The notes under the pieces are model-generated. The model made no database searches, was not told the DNA's origin, and saw nothing but the letters and a program-made list of their open reading frames with translations. From Liolophura sinensis (lineage: Eukaryota > Mollusca > Polyplacophora > Chitonida > Chitonidae), in the NCBI RefSeq assembly GCF_032854445.1, contig NC_088297.1:3533991-3597990 (forward strand): a stretch of 64,000 bases of DNA, given 5' to 3'. Position numbers and translations under genes: made by a program. Shown piece after piece: positions 4,404 through 42,791 of this stretch; within the stretch, counting starts at the first letter, position 1, and every line of letters starts with the position of its first letter.

Positions 4404-4506
4404 ATGAAACTGTATCTTCTCTTCGCTTGTGTGGCCGCTGCCTCGGCTCATATGTGTATGATTAGCCCGCCACAGAGAGGGTCACTCTCTGGCATTAACA
4501 AGTCAG
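4404..4506 (+). CDS. Exon 1 (signal peptide and mature N-terminus)
   Basis: It encodes residues 1-34 plus one base. Donor CAG|GTTGGT was chosen over TTG|GTAACA four bases on, because only the first keeps exon 2 open. Immediately upstream, 4354-4379 is an exact 13-base direct repeat (ACCTGGTCAGTTC). No convincing TATA box was seen. Confidence 0.75.
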
Positions 4507-7500
4507 GTTGGTAACAATATTTCACTAAGATAAATTATATTTTTCCCGCTTCGACTTTTTTCAAGGAAAAGATAGCTCAAAATTGAAGTTATCATCCCAA
4601 GATGATTGCTAGACTTTTTAAAATGAAATCAAAAGCATTCAAATGTTTGAATTCTAAGATGGGCAGCATGGACCATAATGCCAGTGGCAAGTACTCTGAG
4701 ATAACATTACTTTGTGGGATTATTTTTCTGTTTATATTTCCCCACAGGCAAATTTAGTACGAACACTATAATATTTTATACCTCGGGACAGTCGAGGGTG
4801 CCCCCAGGTCTCTGCCCGGTTTCCTCCCACCCCTTCCCCGTCGTATAAGTTAAGTGTCCTGGAGTGAGTCAAATAAATAAATAAATATAATATTTTACTT
4901 CAGGGTAATAATTGACATCCTAACGTTATAATTCAAACTATAATATTAATAGCTGGAAAAAATTGTAACGTAAGGATACACAAAGGATACACGGTTTTAT
5001 GGCTCATTATGCCAACTATATGGATTTCAAGCAGTCGATGCATTTGACTCTCTTTGAAGAAAAGATGAAAGTAAAAAATATCTTTACTCATACGGTCCGT
5101 CAATTGAACCATACAGAAATTCGCTTTTAGCTTTTAATACATGCATGCGTTTTTTGTTTTGTTTCTTTTTTTTTTACATTTTTTGACCGAAGAGTAATGG
5201 AGCATTTGTACGATTTGTATTTTCCAATTTCAAGAATCGATTATATTGTTTAAAAAATATAATAACTGATTATTAATGTAATATTAGGAATCGTGACAAA
5301 ACAGACATGCCCAGTTGTTAGAAAGTGTATCAGTTAATGCTGGTATTAAGTCATACTTTATGTTAATGCTTTTAGGCAAGCCCAGCAGCCAATGCAGTTC
5401 TCCGAGGTCAGAGTTCAACAGCAGCAGTTTTGGTTCATGTTTAATACAATATTACACATTTGCTTTTAAGCTACGTGCAAAACTGAAAAGAGTCGGCTTA
5501 AACTTAAACCTGGCATTACCTCTTAAACCAGTTTTGAACAACCAGGGCCAGGCCTATAGGCTTTGATGAGTCGAAGAGGATTTCTGTATGCGCTCTTCTG
5601 GCATCGAACCAACTTGCAAAGCGGACAGGTACACATGGAAGCCTATCGGGATCCGACCACTCGCATTTTCTCGGGTTTTGACTTCGCTTTTTTGATACTT
5701 CGTTTCTCACCACCGGGCTTTTGACCGTCGTACTTTCGTGTATTCGCATTTTCAACCCTGCACTGTCGTATTCTTCAGTTTTATCTGAACTTACATTTGT
5801 ACAAAGGCCAAAACGGTTTCCTCTCTCGCAGACTTTACGACAAGAGGGATAGTTTCAATTTTGACATGGTAAATTATCCATATTTGGTCAGCAATTGACC
5901 GAAGGTTTCTGTATATGGCGTGTTCGTGTCTTGCATTGTAGCATTTGTTAGATCCTGCGTGTTGTGTGACGATTTCAATGAACGTGGCAAGCTATTACTG
6001 TAAAACTAGTGTTTCAATGTTATTCCATCAAGCGCCTACACTCCAAGTTTCGTAAGTTTTACAATGGGTATAATTCTCTTGTAAGTAAATATGGACAGAG
6101 CGTCCAGAATCTCTGGCGCTCTTCTTCATGATTGTGTCTAATTCCGCTAAACCCGTGGCTTGGGCCTGTATCTTCATCGTGTTGAATCAGACTGCCGCGT
6201 TGAACATGTGAACAGTTGCAACCAAACTGTGATAATATTTTGTTATTGACAACTGATATTCTAGCATGGTACACGATTTGAATCTGTGCGTCGAAACAGA
6301 CATTCGTATACCAGTCGTCACTCCAACATCACTCAAAACTTTTGACAGCTTCTCTTTGCATATTCCCTCCTATTTCCGTGCTTTATATACTTTCATAGTT
6401 CTTTGGTGGTTTGCGTTATACGTCGTTTTGGAAACTGGCCTTGCGATTATTGACCTGGAACGTTCTCATCGATTGACGGCTGGTGTACGATTGTCTATAG
6501 ATTCGACCTCATATTTATATTGTCGAAACTATGAAAACGCGAGTGGTGGCATTCCACTTCCATAAGTGCGAGGGAAAATTCCTTTACGTGTCCTCTGTCG
6601 TCAGGAACAATGCCTGTGAATTCAATACCTGTAGTTCAGATACAAATGCTCTAAAGAGTAAAAATACTTTCTATGACGTTCCTCGAGCAATAGCTTACAA
6701 AGAATTTTTCTCATAGGCGTGAAGCAGGCACAACAATAATAGTATACTCCTTAAAGTGCACGTGAACTTTCTACGCCAGCTTTGCATCATTACCGCCATT
6801 AGATAAGACTAACCTATGGAGCCTTGGCGACGCACGTAGGCTTATGTAGGCTTAGCCTCGCCACTTGTGTCTTTGCGCGGAACTGTTTATCAGTATTCAT
6901 CAACGAAATTTTCCCAGGTGTTGGTTAGAATTATGATTTACATACTTCAGATAAAGAGAATGGTAGTGCGTAAAGTAACAAATGTTGACACAGAGTTTTT
7001 ATGTGTTCTGACATCACTTCCTGTCTCATCATCCTGACCCAGTGACCAGTTGGATTTACTTGGAGTGGCAGGGATGTAAAACAAACGTGAGATTGGCGCA
7101 TGCGGTGTAAGGAGTATGCAATCGTAGATATATAAGCCGACTGAAATTTTTTATTTGAACGAAGATGCCGCTTACTTGTTTATTGGAGATGTGCTATTAT
7201 AAATGGATGCGTTTTACAGAATAATTTCCTGCAACTAGAAGATACTGCAGACCATTGCTGTGAAAGACAAAAACAAAACTAAAATCGACCAAAGTGAACT
7301 GGGAAAAGGACACCGACGGCGCTGGTTAGCCCGCATGTTCAAGATTACTTGTTTTCAACTAATATGGCACGCATGTCTGTTTGTCACGAGTGGGAAGAAT
7401 GTCCATTAACTGTGTCAAAGGTCGGTAGTTACTGCGGATTCCTCCTACCGAAATAAAACCCGAACACCACAGTATAAGACGTGGCCTTAAAGGACAAATA

Positions 7501-10500
7501 TTGAAATTAATTCGCTCAAAGATTTCAACCCAGTTTGGGATCAAAAATGGAGGTAATTATTATTTTTTGCATGCATCATAGCATGGATGTTGGAGACATC
7601 CACAAAAGTTTCACATAAAGATTTATTTGCATAGACGAACAAGATAGACAAAAGAGGAGCTGGGCTTGTGTTCCTTTGGAAAAAAGGGTGTCATTTGCTC
7701 CCCCGGAGCACAACGAGACAAATGATCGGAACATAATGTCAACAAAAGTTACCTAACATTTTTGGCTAGTCACATGATACAGTAAAACTTCTTTTTGCCG
7801 TTAGCAACAAAATCGTTTGATCTCAAAACTCCCCTATTCGTCTGGGATGGGAGTTTGAGTGGAATTGGAAAATCATCAGCACTGATAGATATAGTTTCTA
7901 AGCTTTTTATTTAAAGCACACATTTCCCAACCACAACTTCGGATGATATTGTCGCACGTCTACAGAATTTTTCGCTGCCGAACACATGCCTCTTCCCATT
8001 CGTATACGCGGCCTTACGTCAGGAGGTTGTCAAATACCTAATTGGGTGCGTGATATGCCTGCCCTCTTTCTTCCATACAAACATAAAACCGACTGTTACC
8101 ATATTAATGAGTACATCATTCTTGAGTTCGGCGTCAAATTTGAACAAATATAAAAAAAAGAATTGTAATAGTGGAAATAATTCATAATCTAACTATAAAG
8201 AAAATATTCTATTTAGGCATGTATGTCCGAATTTCTCCTCAATTTTTATCCAATATCCAAGTACATTGTTTGGTATCCAACAAAATACATTAAAAATTAT
8301 TAAAAATATTAAAAGTATTAAAAATTGCATGTGCAAATTCTGAAATGATCTATCTTTTCAACGTGCTTAGCTGGAGAATGAACACTTTTTTAAGTAGAAT
8401 GTGCATACTTGAGGATTGCCGTCGTACTTTGTAGAAGGATAATTCCATTTTACAACCTGTGTCAGATAGGATATGAATGGAGATGCACTTTTAATAAATT
8501 TTTATTTGATTGGTATTTTACGCCGTACTCAAGAATATTTCACTTATACGACGGCGGCCAGGGTGGAAGCCGGGCAGAGCCCGGGGGAAACTCACGACCA
8601 TCCGCATTTTGCTGCAACATCTTCCCACGTACGGCCGGAGAGGAAGCCAGCAAGAGCTGGACACGAACTCACAGCGACCGCATTGGTGAGAGACTCCTGG
8701 GTCATAACGTTGCGCTAGCGCGCTAACCAATTGAGCCACGGAGGCCCCAATAAACAAATAAATAAATAAATACGTTTTCTTTTGAGATAATGTACTTGAC
8801 TGTATACGTAAATACTGGTTCTTTTCAGCCTCGCCTAACTGCATTCGGTTGACGGCTCCCTGTGGTAAACCTGTGACAAGCCCCATCATCAGTATCAAGT
8901 GGGTATTATATATATACTGTTATCCTGACTAGAAGCCTAGGGCTAATCTGTTATCTTTAATGTTTATTGTTATAGACCTTATCTTCAATGTTCTACATGA
9001 AATCAGAAGTCTGAAGCCGATGTGTTATCTTGAATATTAATTGGATTGATCAAAACCAGACGCCTATAGCTCAGCTCTTATCTTTAATATTTATTGTTCT
9101 ACATCAACCCAGAAGCCTTTTTTATTATTATTGTACCTCAAATCAGGAGCCTTTTTACTGTTCTGTCTCAAACTAGAAGTTTATTGTTCTGTATCAGACT
9201 AGAAGCTTAAGGTGATCTGTTATCTTGTATGTTTATTGATTTATTTATTTCCGGGCAAAACCCGTGGGAAACCTACGACCATCCACAGGTTGCTAGAAGG
9301 CCTTTTCACGTACGGCCGGAGAGGAAGCCAGCATGAACTGGATTTGAATACACCGCGACCCTTAATGTTTGTTGTTCTAGATTAACCCAGAAGCCTGAAG
9401 CAGATATGTTGTCTGTTTTAGTACTAGATCCGTTCTGAAGCCTCTAACTGATCTGCTGTCTTCATTGTTTGTTGTTCTAGATCAATCTAGAAGCTTAAAG
9501 CTGTTATTTGTTTTAGTACTAGATCCGGCCTGAAGCGTTTAACTGATCTGCTGTCTTCATTGTTTGTTGTTCTAGATCAATCTAGAAGCCTGAAGCTGTT
9601 ATCAGTTTTAGTGCTAGATCCGACCTGAAGCGTTTAACTGATCTGTTGTCTTCATTGTTTGTTGTTCTAGATCAGGACAGAACTTTACCATGACTGTGCA
9701 GAACCACTGGCTGTTATCTGTTGTTGTGCTAGATCCGACCTGAAGCGTTTAACTGATCTGTTGTCTTCATTGTTTGTTGTTCTAGATCAGGACAGAACTT
9801 TACCGTGACTGTGCAGAACCACTGGCTGTTATCTGTTGTATGGCAAGATCCGACCTGAAGCCTTTAGCTGATCTGTTGTCTTCATTGTTTTTTGTTCTAG
9901 ATCAGGACGGAACTTTACCGTGACTGTGCAGAAGAATTCGAACCACAGGCTGTTATCTGTTTTGGTACCAGATCCGACCTGAAGCCTTTAGCTGATCTGT
10001 TGTCTTCATTGTTTGTTGTTCTAGATCAGGACGGAACTTTACCGTGACTGTGCAGAACCACTGGCAGTTATCTGTTTTAGTGCTAGATCCGACCTGAAGC
10101 CTTTAACTGATCTGTTGTCTTCATTGTTTGTTGTTCAAGATCAATCCGTACGGCTGAAGCGGTTATCTGTTTTAGGACCAGATCCGGCCTGAAGCCTTTG
10201 ACTGATCTGTTGTCTACATTATTTGTTGTTCTAGATCAGGACAGAACTTTACCGTGACTCTACAGAAGAACTCGAACCACTAGCTGTTATCTGTTTTAGT
10301 GCCCGATCCGATCTAAAGCCTCTAACTGATCTGTTGTCTTCATTGTTTATTGTTCTAGATCAGGACAGAACTTTACCGTGACTCTACAGAAGAACCTGAA
10401 CCACTGGGTGTCATCTACACCGGTATGTCTCTACCCACACTCGAAAAAATGCTAATTTTAACAGACAGTCTGTTGTCTTAGTGATTCAAGAAAGTATTCT

Positions 10501-13500
10501 GTTAATGCAACTTAATGTGTCTTATTCAACAAAATATTCTGATAGTTCAAAAGAGTCTTTATGTTGAATCAAAAGAATTTTTGAACTATATTTAACAGAA
10601 TAATCAGCTCCTACAACAGAACACTTTCAAGCATCACTCAAACTACAGAATTTCTGTTAAATTTAATTCATTATAAAGAGAATCGAGAATTTTTGTGCAA
10701 ACTTGAGTGAGAGAAAAAGGTAAAGTGTCGATGAAATTATTTATACAGTGTGCTGCACTTGATGTGATTCAAATACCGCGAAACATGAGCAAAAATACAA
10801 ACAAGCGAATGATCAAAATAAAAAGCAAACAGCACAACAAACAAACCAGTCTGTTTTCAGATGACCTGACCCTTAATTGTGAAGGCAGTTTTTAAGGGTT
10901 TCATCTTTTCTGAGATAATTGGCCTTCGTTGATGTATTATCAGATTTTGGGTGTATAGAACACTACACCTCGTTGCCTTCTTTCTGTGTTTATCTGTTAA
11001 GGCAATGTCACCAAGGGTGGATGTGTGGCTTATCGGTCAGCACGGCCTTGTCGTGATAACCCATATGTTTGCCTGTATAGATAAAAGGGGGATATTTATT
11101 TATTTGGTTGGTATTTTACGCTGTGCGACGGCGACCAGCATAATGGTGGGGAGAAACAGATTTATTTATTTCACTGTATTAAAGAATATTTCACTCACAG
11201 GAACAATCTCAGATCAAGACCGCTTCGGTGTCCTAAAATGATTGGTCTCCCTCGAAGTCAGGAGACCAGGGATCAAACCCGCTGATACCCAAGATTTCAT
11301 GGTACTTTTTCCTGCCTTGCTTGGTGCTCAGCACTGAGAGATTAAAGCAAGGAAACAGGACTGGCTGGCCTATTGGCAGTAAAATGTGACTGGTTGGGGT
11401 GTCATGCATGGTGTCTTGGGCATGATGATTCAGTGGGGCAGCACTTTGGCGGCATGAACTCTTCCAGCCACAAGAAGAAACAGAATATCTACATACATCT
11501 AAAGGCTCCTCGTCGTCATACATACATACGTACATACAAGGTTAGATTAATGTGTGGAGGACTTTTTACAAGATTCCCACATGTTATTACACCAGAAACC
11601 ACCGTTCTGCTCCAGTCACCTGATAAATCTCCTAACGTACGATCACACTCACCGCCTCATCGGTCAAGCAACAGTTGATTATTCGTGACGTGACAAACAC
11701 TTTTGGGAACTGAGTCAGCGACGGAGAGTTGCTCATTGCGGTATAAAATGTTTGAGCCCTCAGTGGGTTGGAGCATTGACCAATGGGAGTCAATCCAGCT
11801 GTCGTTAGGTCGACTGCCGCTTTAAGTCAGGGAGTTTGTCAAGGAGTAATCGTGCTTTGACGTTCTAACATGCCTAACCTCGATCTAATCTGGACTAAAT
11901 CTGAAACTGTGGTTCGAATATCGTTGTTACTTGTTTAGGGTAAGTATGTGAAAGAGAACACGGCCTCAATCCCGAACACGCTAGGCAAGTGTGCCAGCAA
12001 GGGACAGCTACAATCGGGCCTTTTGTTCATGGCAGTATAAAAGATTGGGACCTGGACAATGAGGCTAGAATCCAGCTGTCATGAGGTCGGCGGCCAATTT
12101 AAGTCGGGAAGTTTTTCAGATCCCAGTCAACAGGCTGTAGAATTCCATACTCAATCCGTTTTCATATTTACTTATTATTTTACGCCATAATCAAGAATTT
12201 AAGGTCGTATTGGAGTAAGGCTTGCACCATGGCGGTCAGCAAATAATATATATTTATTGATTGATGTATTACGCCGTACTAAAGAATATTTCTGTGGTAC
12301 GACGACGGGCAGCATGGTGGGAGGAAACCGAGAAGAGCTAGGAGGAAACACACGACCATCCGCAGGTTGTTGGAAGACCTTCCCACTTACAATCTAGCAA
12401 GCCAGCATTAAGGTGGGAGGATGCACTGTATATAGTAGATATATATTTCTCCACAAATAACAAATTGTTACCGTAAGTACAGGGAAGATAAAGTGGGGAT
12501 AGGGTCTGCTATTTTTGTATCCGAAAATTGTCATTGATTTCGGTGAAAGAATCAAAACATGTCAAATATAAATAATCTGGAATACATTTACCCGCAACTT
12601 AAAGTTTCCTAGATGTCTGTATGCTTTGTTTTGATTTCTTTCATTAAAAAAGAAATGATTTTGTACATTTGCAGGGTTACTTTACGGTAGGAGTTGCATC
12701 TTCAGCCTTTGAGAATTACAAGGAATTGGCCAGAATTCCTGATAACGGGGAAGCGGCTCTTACGCTGTATACCGCTAATGTCAACATCCCAATGTCAATG
12801 TGAGTATAAAACATTACCAGTGTCAACACCCCACTGTCTATGAAAGTATAAAAGTACAACCAATGTCAACATCTCCATGCCTATGTAAGTATAAAGCACA
12901 ACCCGTGTCAATATATCAGTGGCTATGTAAGCATATAGGCACAACCTATGTCAACATCCCAATGCGGAGGTAAGTATAAAGCACAACCCGTGTTAATATA
13001 TCAGTGGCTATGTAAGTATATAGGCACGACCAATGTCAACATCCCAATGCCTTGGTAAGTATAAAGTACAACCCGTGTCAATATATCAGTGGCTATGTAA
13101 GTATATAGGCACAACCAATGTCAACATCCCAATGCTTAGGTAGCTGTATAATAATGCCACTGTCAATTTCTTTTTGTAAGTATATTTATTTACTTTATTT
13201 ATTTGATTGGTGTTTTACGCCGTACTCAAGAACATTTCATTTATACGACTGCGGCCAGCATTGTGGTGGGAGGAAACCGGACAGAGCCAGGAGGAAACCC
13301 ACGACCATCCGCAGGTTGCTGTCAGACCTCTCCACTTACGGCCGTATGTGAGTATATAACAGCCAAATATCGAAATATCATTTTCTATAGAAGCATCTCT
13401 CCCAACTACTGCCAAGATTCTAAATGTCAGTACATATAATTATATAGGATCATATGCCTGTGGAAGCATTGTTAATATCAAGATGTCATTGTAAGTATAT

Positions 13501-15787
13501 GTGTTTCCGCATAACGGGAAATAACCCCCTCATTTCGTTTATGACATCAGCAGAAATCATTTGCTTAAGACTTTGGCATAGGCAATAAAACTTCAACCGC
13601 ACGGAATGGAACCAAACTCAAACCTTGTAAAATAAGAGGAGAACCACAGAGTTTGATTGAGGAAGTATTGATTTCGCAATGACAGTGACATTAAGCACAG
13701 ACAATTTCAGTCTAATTCCTATGCTCTGTTGTCAGACGGACTGCCTGTCAGCTATTAAATTGCACTCATTAAAAATAGATACATTCTTATCTCGTGCTAA
13801 ATGATGGGAATTGTTTTCCATAGATGTGAGCGTACATGTAGCTGCCAGGGCAAAGGGAACATTCCGCTTGTGTGGGCGATTTGAACATTGTTGTCTTCAT
13901 ATTATGGTGATGATGTGTCAAAGCTGTGTAATTTAATGATTAACTGTCTAGACAACCGTGTATCAAAATGCATAATGTGCACATTTGGAAATTATCCGCA
14001 CATTTGGAAATAATCCTCACATTTACACATAACCCGCATGTTTGTTTATAATTCTCATTTTTTTTTGTACAATGCGCACATTTGTACAGATTCCTCACAT
14101 TTGTACAAATTGATTACATTTGTACAGATTCCCTACATCTGTACAGAATCCCCACATTTGTACAGATTCACCACATTTCTACAGATTCCCCACATTTGTA
14201 CAGATTCCCCACATCTGTACAGAATCCCAACATTTGTACAGATTCCCCACATTTGTACAGAATCCCCACATTTGTACAGATTCACCACATTTGTACAGAT
14301 TCCCCACATTTGTACAGATTCTGCACGTTTGTACAGATTCCCCACATATGTACAGAATCTCCACATTTGTACAGATTCTGCACGTTTGCACAGATTCCCC
14401 ACACCTGTACAGAATCCCCACATTTGTACAGATTCACCACATTTGTACAGATTCCCCACATTTGTACAGATTCTGCACGTTTGTACAGATTCCCCACATC
14501 TGTACAGAATCTCCACATTTGTACAGATTCTGCACGTTTGCACAGATTCCCCACACCTGTACAGAATCCCCACATTTGTACAGATTCCCCACATTTGTAC
14601 AGATTCCTCGCATCTGTACAGAATCCCCACATTTGTACAGATTCTGCACATTTGTACAGATTCTGCACGTTTGTACAGATTCCTGACATCTGTACAGAAT
14701 CCCAATATTTGTACAGATTTCACACATTTGTACAGATTCCTCATATCTGTACAGAATCCCAACATTTGTACAGATTCTGCACATTTGTACAGATTCTGCA
14801 CGTTTGTACAGATTCCTCACATCTGTACAGAATCCCCACATTTGTACAGATTCTGCACATTTGTACAGATTCCTCACATCTGTACAGAATCCCCACATTT
14901 GTACAGATTCTGCACATTTGTACAAATTCTGCACGTTTGTACAGATTCCTCACATCTGTACAGAATCCCCACGTTTGTACGGATTCTGCACATTTGTACA
15001 CATTCCCTACATCTGTACATAATCCCCACATTTGTACAGATTCCTCACATTTCTACAGATTCCGCACATTTGTACAGATTCACCACATATGTACAAATTT
15101 TTCACATTTGTACAGATTCCCCACGTTTGTTTAGATTCCGCACATTTGTACAGAAAAGATAAGGCAATTCTAGACCTCTAGGTATGTTGGTATACACACC
15201 TGCTGACGTCTATCATTGTTTCTTTCAGGCAGGGACAAGCTATTATTCAGGTGAGCAATGTACTAGTCAAATTCTGGTAAAAATGTCACACATACCGCAG
15301 ACGCAGGCGATATTATTGTTTCGTCGATTGTCAAAATTTGACGGCCACTTTTTATATTTTTACGGCATTTATATACAAAAAATGACAGTGTCCTTTATAA
15401 TATGTGAGATTTTGAAATGTTTACAACATTGTACACATGTGTACACAAGGTATTAAACAAAAATAAATTAATAAATACATTTTTGTGTACAGGAAAATAA
15501 CAGCATATTATGTAAAACAAGTAACATTTACCTTCGTATCTTACCACGCGATCAAACGGAATACTTGCAATCTTTTACCGTTTATCTTAGATTTTTCTTT
15601 TATTTGTTTTGGGTGATAGGGCTTGAAAAACGTGAAAGAATAGAAGAGGCTGTTTTTTTTTTAAATAGATCATTGATTACCGGCTATTACGAATCACTAT
15701 CTGTTTCGTTCCTAGGCTCAGTACGTCACCAAGAACCCGAATGCGCCCGCCATCTTTTACCAGTGCTCTGACGTGAACATCAACTAA
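4404..15787 (+). CDS. Secreted histidine-brace copper protein, BIM1/X325-like (6 exons, 151 aa)
   Basis: I assembled this by hand: 4404-4506, 8829-8898, 10359-10422, 12675-12799, 15229-15250 and 15716-15787. All junctions are GT-AG and the frame is continuous through 456 bases. Residues 1-15 form a signal peptide ending ASA, so the mature chain starts at His16 (HMCMISPPQRGS). Mature cysteines are C18, C39, C46 and C145; N62-F-T is a glycosylation sequon; N72-H73-W74 and Y143-QCSD lie where the family has its second histidine and acidic ligand. From family knowledge, BIM1/X325 proteins are LPMO-like and bind copper through the N-terminal amine, His1, an inner His and an Asp. I infer copper binding through H16, H73 and perhaps D147, outside the cell or at the cell surface. 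Enzymatic polysaccharide cleavage is not implied. The ATG has a good context (CACCATGA). An alternative is an LPMO-like lineage of unknown role. Confidence 0.72.
4796..4890 (+). mobile_element. SINE-A 3' fragment
   Basis: It contains GCCCGGTTTCCTCCCACC, GTCGTATAAGT and a terminal AAATAAATAAATAAAT, in + orientation. The tRNA head is absent. Confidence 0.75.
5307..5552. mobile_element. Foldback element family 2, copy A
   Basis: The ends are inverted: GCCCAGTTGTTAGAAAG at the left and TTTTGAACAACCAGGGC at the right. The interior aligns with 23932-24152 (shared AATRCTGGTATT and CAGCAGCCAATG). It is a probable MITE, superfamily not assigned. Confidence 0.6.
5553..7524. other. No gene recognised (within intron 1)
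   Basis: No repeat family or coding exon recognised. The short frames at 5516-5755, 6059-6274 and 6266-6716 lack supporting features. Confidence 0.45.
7525..7842. mobile_element. Foldback element family 3, copy B
   Basis: The left end CAGTTTGGGATCAAAAATGG and right end TTTGATCTCAAAACTCCCC are imperfect inverted repeats. The inner stretch AATGTCAACAAAAGTTACC matches copy A at 3722-4063. Confidence 0.5.
7843..8499. other. No gene recognised (within intron 1)
   Basis: A/T-rich, with simple TTAAAAATATTAAAA runs near 8290-8325. Nothing else identified. Confidence 0.5.
8500..8748 (-). mobile_element. SINE-A, near full length
   Basis: The tRNA-like head lies at the right (GCTAACCAATTGAGCCACGG) and the tail at the left. 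The body has a short deletion: CATTATGGTGGGAGG is replaced by GGTGGAAGC. It ends 80 bases before exon 2. Confidence 0.9.
8829..8898 (+). CDS. Exon 2
   Basis: Acceptor TTTTCAG|CC and donor AA|GTGGGT. It encodes residues 35-57 with parts of the flanking codons, including C39 and C46 (TAPCGKP). The P-C-G motif is typical of the BIM1-like family. Confidence 0.75.
8935..10358 (+). repeat. Tandem array of intron 2 end plus partial exon 3 (pseudo-exons)
   Basis: Units of about 115 bases contain TCTGTTGTCTTCATTGTTTG, the acceptor TTGTTCTAG and, in five copies, the first part of exon 3 (ATCAGGACRGAACTTTACC). Exon-like segments start at 9671, 9786, 9901, 10025 and 10235; the true exon starts at 10359. 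Copies at 9671, 9786 and 10025 lack 9 bases in frame relative to exon 3. The copy at 10235 has a stop (AACCACTAG). None shows the true GTATGT donor. Older, weaker units without exon sequence run back to about 8935. Confidence 0.85.
9236..9360 (-). mobile_element. SINE-A fragment
   Basis: Shows a TTTATTTATTT tail, AAACCTACGACCATCC and TACGGCCGGAGAGGAAGCC, then stops at the start of the array unit. The outer body and tRNA head are missing. Confidence 0.75.
10359..10422 (+). CDS. Exon 3 (contains Asn-His-Trp)
   Basis: Acceptor TTCTAG|ATC and donor CCG|GTATGT. It encodes residues 58-79 and holds the N62 sequon and H73, the likely second copper histidine. Of the six tandem copies it is the only one with a full-length exon, an intact frame and a consensus donor. 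Confidence 0.75.
10438..10709. mobile_element. Foldback element family 4, copy A
   Basis: It starts with CACTCGAAAAAATGC 15 bases after the exon 3 donor and ends with GAGTG. The inner inverted arms contain TTTTAACAGACAGTCTGTTG and its reverse, and match the copy at 36596-36810. The flanking TA expected for the family is not intact here. Confidence 0.55.
10710..11088. other. No feature recognised (within intron 3)
   Basis: Includes a short A-rich frame (10707-10895) without support. Confidence 0.5.
11090..11205 (-). mobile_element. SINE-A fragments, rearranged
   Basis: TTTATTTGGTTGGTATTTTACGC plus CAGCATAATGGTGGG is followed by a second piece with TTTATTTATTTCACTG and AAGAATATTTCACT. The order differs from the intact element, suggesting two partial insertions or a rearrangement. 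Confidence 0.6.
11217..11535 (+). mobile_element. SINE-B copy
   Basis: A tRNA-like start (AGGGATCAAACCC as B box at about 11270) is followed by a body shared with 46585-46942 (AAAGCAAGGAAAC, GGCAGCACTTTGGCGGCAT) and a terminal CGTCGTCATACATACATAC. This family has a different body from SINE-A. Confidence 0.7.
11536..12162. repeat. Diverged tandem duplication; otherwise empty
   Basis: About 11723-11850 and 12025-12125 align (shared AATCCAGCTGTC, TTTAAGTC and GTATAAAA). No coding sequence recognised. Confidence 0.45.
12163..12235 (-). mobile_element. SINE-A tail fragment
   Basis: Contains ATTATTTTACGCCATAATCAAGAAT and CATGGCGGTCAGC, a degenerate tail and body edge. Confidence 0.5.
12249..12408 (-). 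mobile_element. SINE-A, lacking tRNA head
   Basis: Tail and body are clear (TTTATTGATTGATGTATTACG, GGTGGGAGGAAACCG, CGACCATCCGCAGGTTG). It breaks off after AGCCAGCAT. Confidence 0.8.
12675..12799 (+). CDS. Exon 4
   Basis: Acceptor TTTGCAG|GGT and donor AAT|GTGAGT. It encodes residues 80-120 (GYFTVGVASSAF through VNIPMS), a beta-rich looking segment without cysteine. It is the longest exon and the frame is open throughout. Confidence 0.75.
12778..13500 (+). repeat. Minisatellite derived from exon 4 edge and its donor
   Basis: The last bases of exon 4 with its donor (TGTCAACATCCCAATG then GTGAGTATA) recur about every 42 bases downstream, alternating with a related unit (GTGTCAATATATCAGTGGC). 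Many units keep a consensus-like GTAAGTATA donor. A SINE-A at 13186-13346 splits the array; weak units continue to about 13500. Confidence 0.8.
13186..13346 (-). mobile_element. SINE-A, 5'-truncated
   Basis: Tail, body and ACTTACGGCCG are present and the tRNA-like head is missing. It lies inside the exon 4-derived array. Confidence 0.85.
13501..14037. other. No feature recognised (within intron 4)
   Basis: No coding or repeat structure seen before the 19-base array starts to appear at about 13980. Confidence 0.5.
14038..15165. repeat. 19-base minisatellite, about 59 units
   Basis: The unit is close to ATTCCCCACATTTGTACAG and contains the palindrome TGTACA. Because 19 is not a multiple of three and no phase of the unit makes a stop, frames stay open on both strands (374, 350 and 188 codons on +, up to 222 on -) with a 19-residue period. 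That is an array property and gives no evidence of a protein. The array lies wholly in intron 4. Confidence 0.95.
15229..15250 (+). CDS. Exon 5, 22-base microexon
   Basis: Acceptor TTTCAG|GCAG and donor CAG|GTGAGC. It completes M121 and encodes QGQAIIQ. A second possible acceptor four bases on would shift the frame. Only this choice links the frames of exons 4 and 6. Confidence 0.65.
15251..15715 (+). other. Intron 5
   Basis: GT-AG intron of 465 bases. Frames at 15184-15456 and 15565-15771 cross the exon edges in other phases and are not supported. Confidence 0.6.
15716..15787 (+). CDS. Exon 6 (C-terminus, YQCSD motif)
   Basis: Acceptor TTCCTAG|GCT. It encodes residues 129-151 and TAA, with NPNAPAIFYQCSDVNIN at the end. 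C145 should pair with a mature cysteine, and D147 is a candidate copper ligand by family analogy. Confidence 0.75.
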   Translation, partial: AQYVTKNPNAPAIFYQCSDVNIN

Positions 15788-15830: not shown

Positions 15831-15836
15831 AATAAA
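15831..15836 (+). promoter_or_regulatory. Polyadenylation signal AATAAA
   Basis: It lies 44 bases after the stop codon, giving a very short 3' UTR. Confidence 0.75.
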
Positions 15837-41450: not shown

Positions 41451-42791
41451 TTAAGAATAGGTTATCAACTTTGACTGAAGACGCAAACTTCCTGTCGAGG
41501 AAATTCCCGGAAGCTCTCGGTGTTTGGGACACACAGATCTAATCAACGAGGTGAACAAATAGAAACAGGAAAAGCAGGTTTGGCCTGTGGGAGTACGACA
41601 TTTAGAAAATTTGCAAAATGTAATCAGATCTGAGTAAAGTTTTCGTACCCATGTTTGGTTTGTTTGGGAATTCTGGTAATGGGCTTTGGAACACTTGGAA
41701 TACCCTCCACCTTGACCCATCTTGTATCGGAAAATCATCTTCACTTCGCGCCGGAAGTAAGCTCCTGTTATACTGTACAGGAAGAAATTCACACAGTAGT
41801 TCATGTAGAAGATAGCTCTGACGATGTACAGCACTCCCGTGGTGTGAGACTTGCTCGTCAAGTCGTAGGCACTTTTCTGAGTCTTGCTTTCGAAGACGGT
41901 CTGAATCCAGAACGTGAAGTAAGGCAGATTAAAGGCGATGAAGCAGAGGGAGATGGCAAGGAGGATGAGAGTGAACTCCAGGCGGATGATGCTCTCCTCT
42001 GTCATCACGCTGCACTCCCTCTGGCGACGGTTCCGCTGCACTAGTTTGCGGATGATTAACAGGTTGAGGGCGGTTATGAGGATGAAGGGCACAAGTGTGA
42101 TGAGGACGCCATAGATGCTGTCGAGAATCTCGGAGACTTTTTTGTGCTCGGGTAAGCTCACGCAATGCTTTTCGCCGACCATCTCGATCGGACCGCTCAG
42201 GATGGGCTTGTAGATTAGAAGAACGGCTGATACCAAAACTAGGCACAGGATAATTTTCCGGCTACTGGCCGTGGAGATACTCCGCCGTCTGAGGGGATGG
42301 CAAACGCCGATGTAACGTTCCACGGTAAAGATGACGACCAACCACGCCGACAGGAAGCGGAAGATGTAGCCTAAATACATGAGGAGATGACAGACGCCGG
42401 TCACGGCCAGAAAATCTACCCTCACATGCCCGGGTAACAGTTTTAATCCTCTCTGCAACCACTGAATGAAGACAAAGAATATAAGCGTCATGAGATCCGA
42501 TAGTGACAGAGCCGCGAGGTAGTTACTCGCCGACAGTGACCTCATGTTCTTTGATGTGAAGACGCTGAGAGACAGGGAGTTACCTAAGATACCAATGATA
42601 AGGATAACAGGGGTGAGCCAGGCGTACATGGTTTCCCCGAACACCTGGATGAACAGAGGCTTGCCCGAGTGCGTCCAAGTGTGCAAGGTACCGCTACAGT
42701 TCGTGCGGTTGCGCACCGAGGTAAAGTCCATCTCGAAGAAGTCATCGGAGATGAAATCCATCCTATCGAACTCTTGGTAGCAGGGATCCAT
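41451..42791 (-). CDS. Class A GPCR, probably neuropeptide-type (446 aa)
   Basis: Seven membrane segments are visible, roughly residues 57-79 (with GN at 70-71), 91-112 (D99), 130-156, 180-198, 223-248, 271-299 (P290) and 320-341. The DRY box is E158-R-Y. C134 and C210 should form the usual extracellular bridge. The NPxxY region reads N335-F-F-L-Y, a form seen in FMRFamide-type and related peptide receptors. N28-R-T and N31-C-S are glycosylation sequons in an acidic N-terminus. The roughly 105-residue cytoplasmic tail is cysteine-rich. It would sense an extracellular ligand and signal through G proteins; the ligand is unknown. On the - strand, TTTTCCAG ends at 42816 and the frame stays open from 42815 (DSNTSLNL before M1), so a spliced upstream exon and an earlier start are possible. 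Confidence 0.85.
   Translation of the reverse strand: MDPCYQEFDRMDFISDDFFEMDFTSVRNRTNCSGTLHTWTHSGKPLFIQVFGETMYAWLTPVILIIGILGNSLSLSVFTSKNMRSLSASNYLAALSLSDLMTLIFFVFIQWLQRGLKLLPGHVRVDFLAVTGVCHLLMYLGYIFRFLSAWLVVIFTVERYIGVCHPLRRRSISTASSRKIILCLVLVSAVLLIYKPILSGPIEMVGEKHCVSLPEHKKVSEILDSIYGVLITLVPFILITALNLLIIRKLVQRNRRQRECSVMTEESIIRLEFTLILLAISLCFIAFNLPYFTFWIQTVFESKTQKSAYDLTSKSHTTGVLYIVRAIFYMNYCVNFFLYSITGAYFRREVKMIFRYKMGQGGGYSKCSKAHYQNSQTNQTWVRKLYSDLITFCKFSKCRTPTGQTCFSCFYLFTSLIRSVCPKHRELPGISSTGSLRLQSKLITYS

Follow-up and report, generated by a model that had tools for sequence, protein, structure and literature searches.

A small gene family for putative secreted histidine-brace proteins of the BIM1-like/LPMO-like group in the chiton Liolophura sinensis

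Gene A, the subject of this study, occupies positions 4404..15787 on the plus strand of a 64,000-nucleotide stretch (the window) of contig NC_088297.1 of the chiton Liolophura sinensis, whose genome comprises 609 Mb in 632 contigs. We propose that it encodes a soluble, secreted histidine-brace copper protein of the BIM1-like and lytic polysaccharide monooxygenase (LPMO)-like group, most likely acting in copper binding and hand-off, and to this statement taken as a whole we assign a probability of roughly one half. In the mechanism that we envisage, signal peptidase would remove the signal peptide and expose H16 as the new N-terminus; the amino group and imidazole of H16 would then form, together with H73, a T-shaped histidine brace around one copper ion, with F142 as the axial residue, in the manner of AA10 enzymes. 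A C46-C145 disulfide would be common to the bacterial relatives of the protein, a C18-C39 bridge being an extra of the animal branch, and the job of the whole would be the capture and hand-off of extracellular copper rather than the cleavage of polysaccharides.

Gene A consists of six exons separated by five introns, all GT-AG, with phases 1-2-0-2-0, and its product has 151 residues; this chain, proposed in a preliminary description made from the letters of the DNA, proved exact. Exon 1 (4404..4506, plus strand like all the others), with the start codon context CACCATGA and the donor GTTGGT, encodes the signal peptide (residues 1-15) and the start of the mature protein, HMCMISPPQRGSLSGINKS. 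Exon 2 (8829..8898) encodes the stretch opening with ASPNCIRLTAPCG, with Cys39 and the PCG motif (Cys46), and exon 3 (10359..10422) encodes SGQNFTVTLQKNLNHWVSSTP, with H73, the second histidine of the putative brace. Exon 4 (12675..12799) encodes GYFTVGVASSAFENYKELARIPDNGEAALTLYTANVNIPMS, which contains D102, exon 5 (15229..15250) is a 22-base microexon (QGQAIIQ), and exon 6 (15716..15787) encodes AQYVTKNPNAPAIFYQCSDVNIN followed by the stop codon, and thereby F142 at the LPMO axial position, C145 and D147. A polyadenylation signal, AATAAA, can be read from the sequence at 15831..15836 on the same strand, beginning 44 bases past the stop. When GT/AG choices near these sites were enumerated, 12 kept the frame open to the stop; a single one of them yields the 151-residue product, and this one alone was aligned with the paralogues. 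The translated protein has the features reported in the preliminary description, namely a signal peptide ending in ASA, a mature N-terminal His16, the PCG motif and four mature cysteines (18, 39, 46 and 145), a further cysteine (C9) sitting in the signal peptide. The mature protein is 136 residues long, and the only histidines and aspartates of A are H16, H73, D102 and D147. Directly before the real exon 3, intron 2 holds five partial, decayed tandem repeats of the acceptor and first half of exon 3 (9669..10280, plus strand; starts at 9669, 9784, 9899, 10023 and 10233; unit of about 95-124 bases), which could compete in splicing.

Gene A belongs to a gene family under purifying selection. A search of the chiton's own genome with protein A gave 13 matches, made up of its own exons, an exon 3 copy, more exons some 300 kb away on the same contig and opposite strand, plus a single match to a different contig at only E 4.66. 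Two paralogues were joined from genomic DNA on that opposite strand: gene B, of 153 residues (contig positions 3243625 down to 3234062), and gene D, of 164 residues (3228090 down to 3219734), each with six exons and the phases 1-2-0-2-0 found in A. Exons 1 and 2 have counterparts in both paralogues, as do exon 3 (with DHW in B and AHF in D) and the microexon, whose counterparts (25 bases in B, 28 in D) were each the sole candidate above the splice-site score used. A and B have the same residue at 84 of 151 aligned positions (56%), with proportions of synonymous (pS) and nonsynonymous (pN) differences of 0.85 and 0.29; the corresponding values are 50/150 (33%), pS 0.78 and pN 0.47 for A and D, and 45/152, pS 0.74 and pN 0.47 for B and D. 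Because there are two complete paralogues with identical intron phases and a synonymous excess between A and B, gene A is not a product of chance. Two further remnants were seen in this cluster: a partial tandem copy of D at 3212800-3216080, in which exons 3, 4 and 6 are visible, and a lone BIM1-like last exon at 3229347-3229424, whose other exons were not found.

Pfam BIM1-like (PF20238), an LPMO auxiliary-like family with fungal Bim1/Cbi1 and X325 as members, is the sole family matched by A, B and D alike, and the match takes in almost all of the mature protein (profile positions 1-122 of 140). B (27.8 bits, E 3.9e-6) and D (28.9 bits, E 1.8e-6) lie above its curated cut-off of 27 bits, and A (25.0 bits, E 2.9e-5) lies 2 bits below. 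For Pfam LPMO_10 (PF03067; curated cut-off 23 bits), A is the only one of the three to pass (31.7 bits, E 3.1e-7), B reaching 12.6 bits (E 0.23) and D giving no match. The profile search against BIM1-like and LPMO families advocated in the preliminary description thus gives a mixed outcome, A passing LPMO_10 and B and D passing BIM1-like, with A just short on the latter. The proteins resemble BIM1-like/X325 proteins in the N-terminal His that follows the signal peptide, in a start of the form Hx5PxxR and in the Pfam match of all three, and differ from them in showing no sign of a glycosylphosphatidylinositol (GPI) anchor, in an axial Phe (Leu in D), in the 2 bits that A lacks and in a Gly-rich-loop Asp that is not established. 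With AA10 enzymes (LPMO_10), A has in common a score above cut-off, an FYxC(S)D end that includes the axial Phe, and the Hx5PxxR start, whereas 57 residues (A) instead of 107 separate the histidines and B and D remain below the LPMO_10 cut-off. The BIM1 family model itself found no match in the chiton genome and was equally silent in control genomes; for the chiton this is expected because the gene is split by introns. A first scan of genome contigs with profile A1 found no relatives, viral contigs gave no confirmed relatives, and the best values on plasmids (E 5 for A, 6 for B) and phages (E 0.4 for A, 7 for D) were not accepted as relatives.

Bacterial relatives are described by the NCBIfam model SCE4755 (NF043005), a polysaccharide monooxygenase-like family; its match to A runs the length of the protein and scores 25.1 bits (E 1.5e-5), far below the cut-off of 75. 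Among 297 genomes of one bacterial phylum, taken to be Acidobacteriota, 11 gave a match to this profile at a threshold of E 0.01, and in 7 of the 297 a member above cut-off is present, giving eight proteins. Seven of these eight match BIM1-like and none matches LPMO_10 when values up to E 1 are admitted, the first member scoring 26.4 bits on BIM1-like, slightly below the cut-off. A profile-profile comparison of the animal with the bacterial set gave a probability of 71% (E 3.7e-5) over the N-terminal half. Both sets have H1, PCG, a second His at equal spacing followed by Gly and an aromatic residue, and a C-x-D end; they differ in that A scores 25 bits against a cut-off of 75, and in that the bacterial proteins have an axial Tyr and a longer loop and do without C18 and C39. 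NF043005 was found in none of five bait genomes (0/5), and a profile of the joint animal and bacterial alignment A3 found nothing in 297 genomes of the phylum of genome G001 (0/297), a set without a known positive and hence uninformative.

Alignment A3 combines the three animal proteins with five of the eight bacterial ones. Its invariant residues are, in the mature numbering of A, H1, P7, PCG, H58, G65, G89, P103, C130 and D132. The brace histidines are kept in all three animal proteins (the second being H73, H74 and H75 in A, B and D) and in all eight bacterial ones, and they are the only histidines of A; H16 and H73, which the preliminary description had picked out, are thus well supported as predicted brace ligands. 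The spacing between them is 57, 58 and 58 in A, B and D, 55-63 in the eight bacterial proteins and 107 in P0001, an AA10 enzyme used for comparison. By eye, an AxA precedes H16 in A and its equivalent in B, and D likewise has a signal peptide followed by His. The Hx5PxxR start is present in A (HMCMISPPQR) and in P0001 (HGWSEYPNAR), and the bacterial proteins retain its H and P, not its R; a fungal X325 protein whose start is given as HTVIVYPGYR also fits it (PMC10349129).

The MAFFT alignment A3 leaves the bacteria gapped at the axial column; the axial residue was read by counting from the last conserved Cys. Three positions before this Cys, A, B and P0001 have F, D has L and 8/8 bacteria have Y, so that F142 is well supported, on this residue pattern, as the likely axial neighbour of the copper site. 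From AA10 alignments, F142 presumably has the same axial position as Phe188 of a Photorhabdus AA10 enzyme. The copper ligands reported for that enzyme are His26, His115 and Phe188 (PMC12377627).

The preliminary description had also considered D147 as a possible third ligand. This residue lies two positions past the last Cys; P0001 has an Asp in the same place (NCSDI), and the bacterial proteins end in CAD in 8/8 cases. Over the C-terminal 42 columns the animal set aligns with P0001 at a probability of 86% (E 4.9e-6). Because the Asp is also found in the AA10 enzyme and in all eight bacterial proteins, it is a feature of the fold and not of X325, and D147 was set aside as the best choice of a ligand. 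In fungal Bim1, the ligand Asp is placed on a Gly-rich loop by a homology model and mutants, and is presented as a key difference from LPMOs (PMC7529816). The animal proteins have in D102 an Asp set in DNG, DMG or DPG and invariant in 3/3; the same column reads E, E, P, A and D in the five bacterial proteins of A3, adjoining an invariant Gly, and another alignment shifts this stretch. D102 may be a better candidate than D147 for a ligand Asp. As for the cysteines, C46 and C145 are common to animal and bacterial proteins, and C18 and C39 occur in 3/3 animal proteins and at those places in 0/8 bacteria, which makes C46-C145 and C18-C39 the simplest disulfide pairing that we can infer.

Searched against PDB sequences with values up to E 10 admitted, profile A3 matched seven distinct entries, the best at E 0.0044, of which three are named GH61, three are named endoglucanases and one is cPMO2; the last four we take to be AA9 LPMOs. 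Profile A1 gave one match, 8b7p (E 0.87), presumably also an LPMO, and profile A2 gave none. As single sequences, A matched two capsid proteins (E 0.15 and 0.17), B a phage tail fibre (E 0.7) and dihydrofolate reductase (E 2.1), and D one AA9 LPMO (E 0.3) over the C-terminal strand. Entry 2yet is TaAA9A (PMC7529816). X325 itself was among none of the PDB sequence or profile matches.

All X325 members are described as carrying a C-terminal GPI anchor (PMC8615602). By hydropathy, the one measure used, none of the three animal proteins has the hydrophobic C-terminus of a GPI-anchor tail: the highest Kyte-Doolittle mean of any 15-residue stretch within the final 44 residues is 0.55 in A, 0.68 in B and 0.87 in D, against 1.7-2.2 for their signal peptides (read by eye), and A ends six residues past its last Cys. 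By this measure, then, the proteins are not X325 proper and would act in solution. The name BIM1/X325-like, given in the preliminary description, therefore holds as far as a secreted protein of the LPMO/BIM1-like group is concerned, as the profile matches indicate, and fails for X325 in the strict sense.

The region between the two brace histidines builds the substrate face of LPMOs. With 57 residues between the histidines in A against 107 in the AA10 enzyme, most of the loop that makes up this face would be missing, and copper binding and hand-off thus seem likelier than polysaccharide cleavage. Bim1 is described as binding copper and as leaving cellulose uncleaved (PMC7529816, PMC7924993).

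Several observations weigh against a copper-handling protein of the BIM1-like group: (i), the score of A is better on LPMO_10, which is a family of enzymes, than on BIM1-like. (ii), P0001, at 138.9 bits a clear LPMO_10 member, also has a weak BIM1-like match (20.0 bits, E 0.001), so that the BIM1-like model is no clean separator of the two groups. (iii), SCE4755 gives a weak match to D (E 0.0041) and none to B, and an animal-only profile, scoring only the best candidates per genome, gave chance-like matches (E 0.0016-0.0071) in 4 of the 297 genomes searched with SCE4755 and none in the 7 carrier genomes. (iv), among nine bacterial loci, whose neighbouring genes were compared without a family search, no neighbour turns up in more than two, so that a copper operon lends no support. 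(v), in D the axial residue is Leu and the site of signal cleavage is less usual. (vi), a reversed-profile control also found one PDB sequence, an amidase (E 0.0079, no stretch passing alone), which makes the PDB E-values weak; the argument for an LPMO-type fold would then be that all seven matches are of one kind, and it is weakened by their mutual kinship.

The main competitor is a minimal copper oxygenase or peroxygenase, in which the brace, axial F142 and a free fourth site would use O2 or H2O2 to oxidise a glycan or another surface molecule. While we consider it unlikely, such an enzyme would account well for the LPMO_10 score of A (31.7 bits vs a cut-off of 23), for an axial Phe as in AA10, for the absence of an obvious fourth ligand in D147 and for the PDB matches of A3, all of the GH61/AA9 kind. 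It is harder to reconcile with B and D, which give only E 0.23 and no match on LPMO_10, with a region between the histidines that is about 50 residues shorter than in the AA10 enzyme and would leave little substrate face, and with a genome that already has twelve LPMO_10 exon matches above cut-off (of 13 listed) elsewhere. It is tempting to speculate further that minimal soluble brace proteins form an animal family of their own, in which an axial Phe and the lack of a fixed carboxylate would keep the copper open and reactive for oxygenase or peroxygenase chemistry on a target other than polysaccharide, but we regard this as rather improbable.

Improbable too, in our view, is a metal-free structural or defence protein, secreted and keeping fold and histidines for other reasons. 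D, with its axial Leu and a Phe after the second His, would suit such a protein, and small, locally duplicated families of this sort are often seen among fast-evolving secreted proteins; a structural role, however, would not need an N-terminal His, and the brace histidines, the only ones of A, are kept in 11/11 proteins (three animal, eight bacterial). That there is no gene at all, the exons having been joined by eye, can hardly be believed in view of two complete paralogues with the same phases, a strong synonymous excess and matches to curated families, even though one exon has only 22 bases, intron 2 holds partial copies of exon 3 and the exon chain is known from DNA alone.

The preferred reading, a soluble brace protein handling copper, gains nothing from the genes around A. 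The window also carries an intronless gene for a 446-residue G protein-coupled receptor at 41451-42791 on the minus strand (Pfam 7tm_1, E 2.7e-25), and upstream of the window, at about contig positions 3522293-3525877, a long open frame, scanned as two pieces, holds a GRF zinc finger together with an SNF2 helicase domain. These neighbours say nothing on function, and the same is true of the bacterial neighbourhoods, in two of whose nine loci (L115 and L118) an SCE4755-type gene or remnant adjoins a probable two-component regulator pair, so labelled by eye from the sequences, and four other common neighbours. Within the limits of gene A, window positions 14070-15150 are filled by a long tandem array related to CCCACATTTGTACAGATT, which has several frames open on either strand; its open reading frames of up to 374 residues are repeat artefacts. 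Elsewhere in the genome (contigs C1, C2, C10 and C11; loci L035-L046), 12 of the 13 LPMO_10 exon matches listed lie above cut-off, and by these matches the genome has a sizeable predicted LPMO set besides the BIM1-like family. An animal LPMO of the AA15 kind is probably included at these other loci, an assignment made by eye from one match, L035, in which one open frame spans profile positions 59-171, whereas the same region is split over several exons in gene A.

In a 2023 review, all entries of the Bim1/X325 table are fungal (PMC10952591), and literature searches on Bim1/X325 returned no animal case among the matches listed. Automatically named animal members are probably already present in protein databases. 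Judged by its sequences, the animal branch would be a new member of the BIM1-like group, distinguished by its apparent lack of an anchor, an additional pair of cysteines and, at the axial position, a Phe that D replaces by Leu. The existence of an animal branch alongside a bacterial relative points to use of the histidine brace in copper handling beyond the fungi as well, and a small protein with just two histidines allows the question of carrier versus LPMO to be posed residue by residue.

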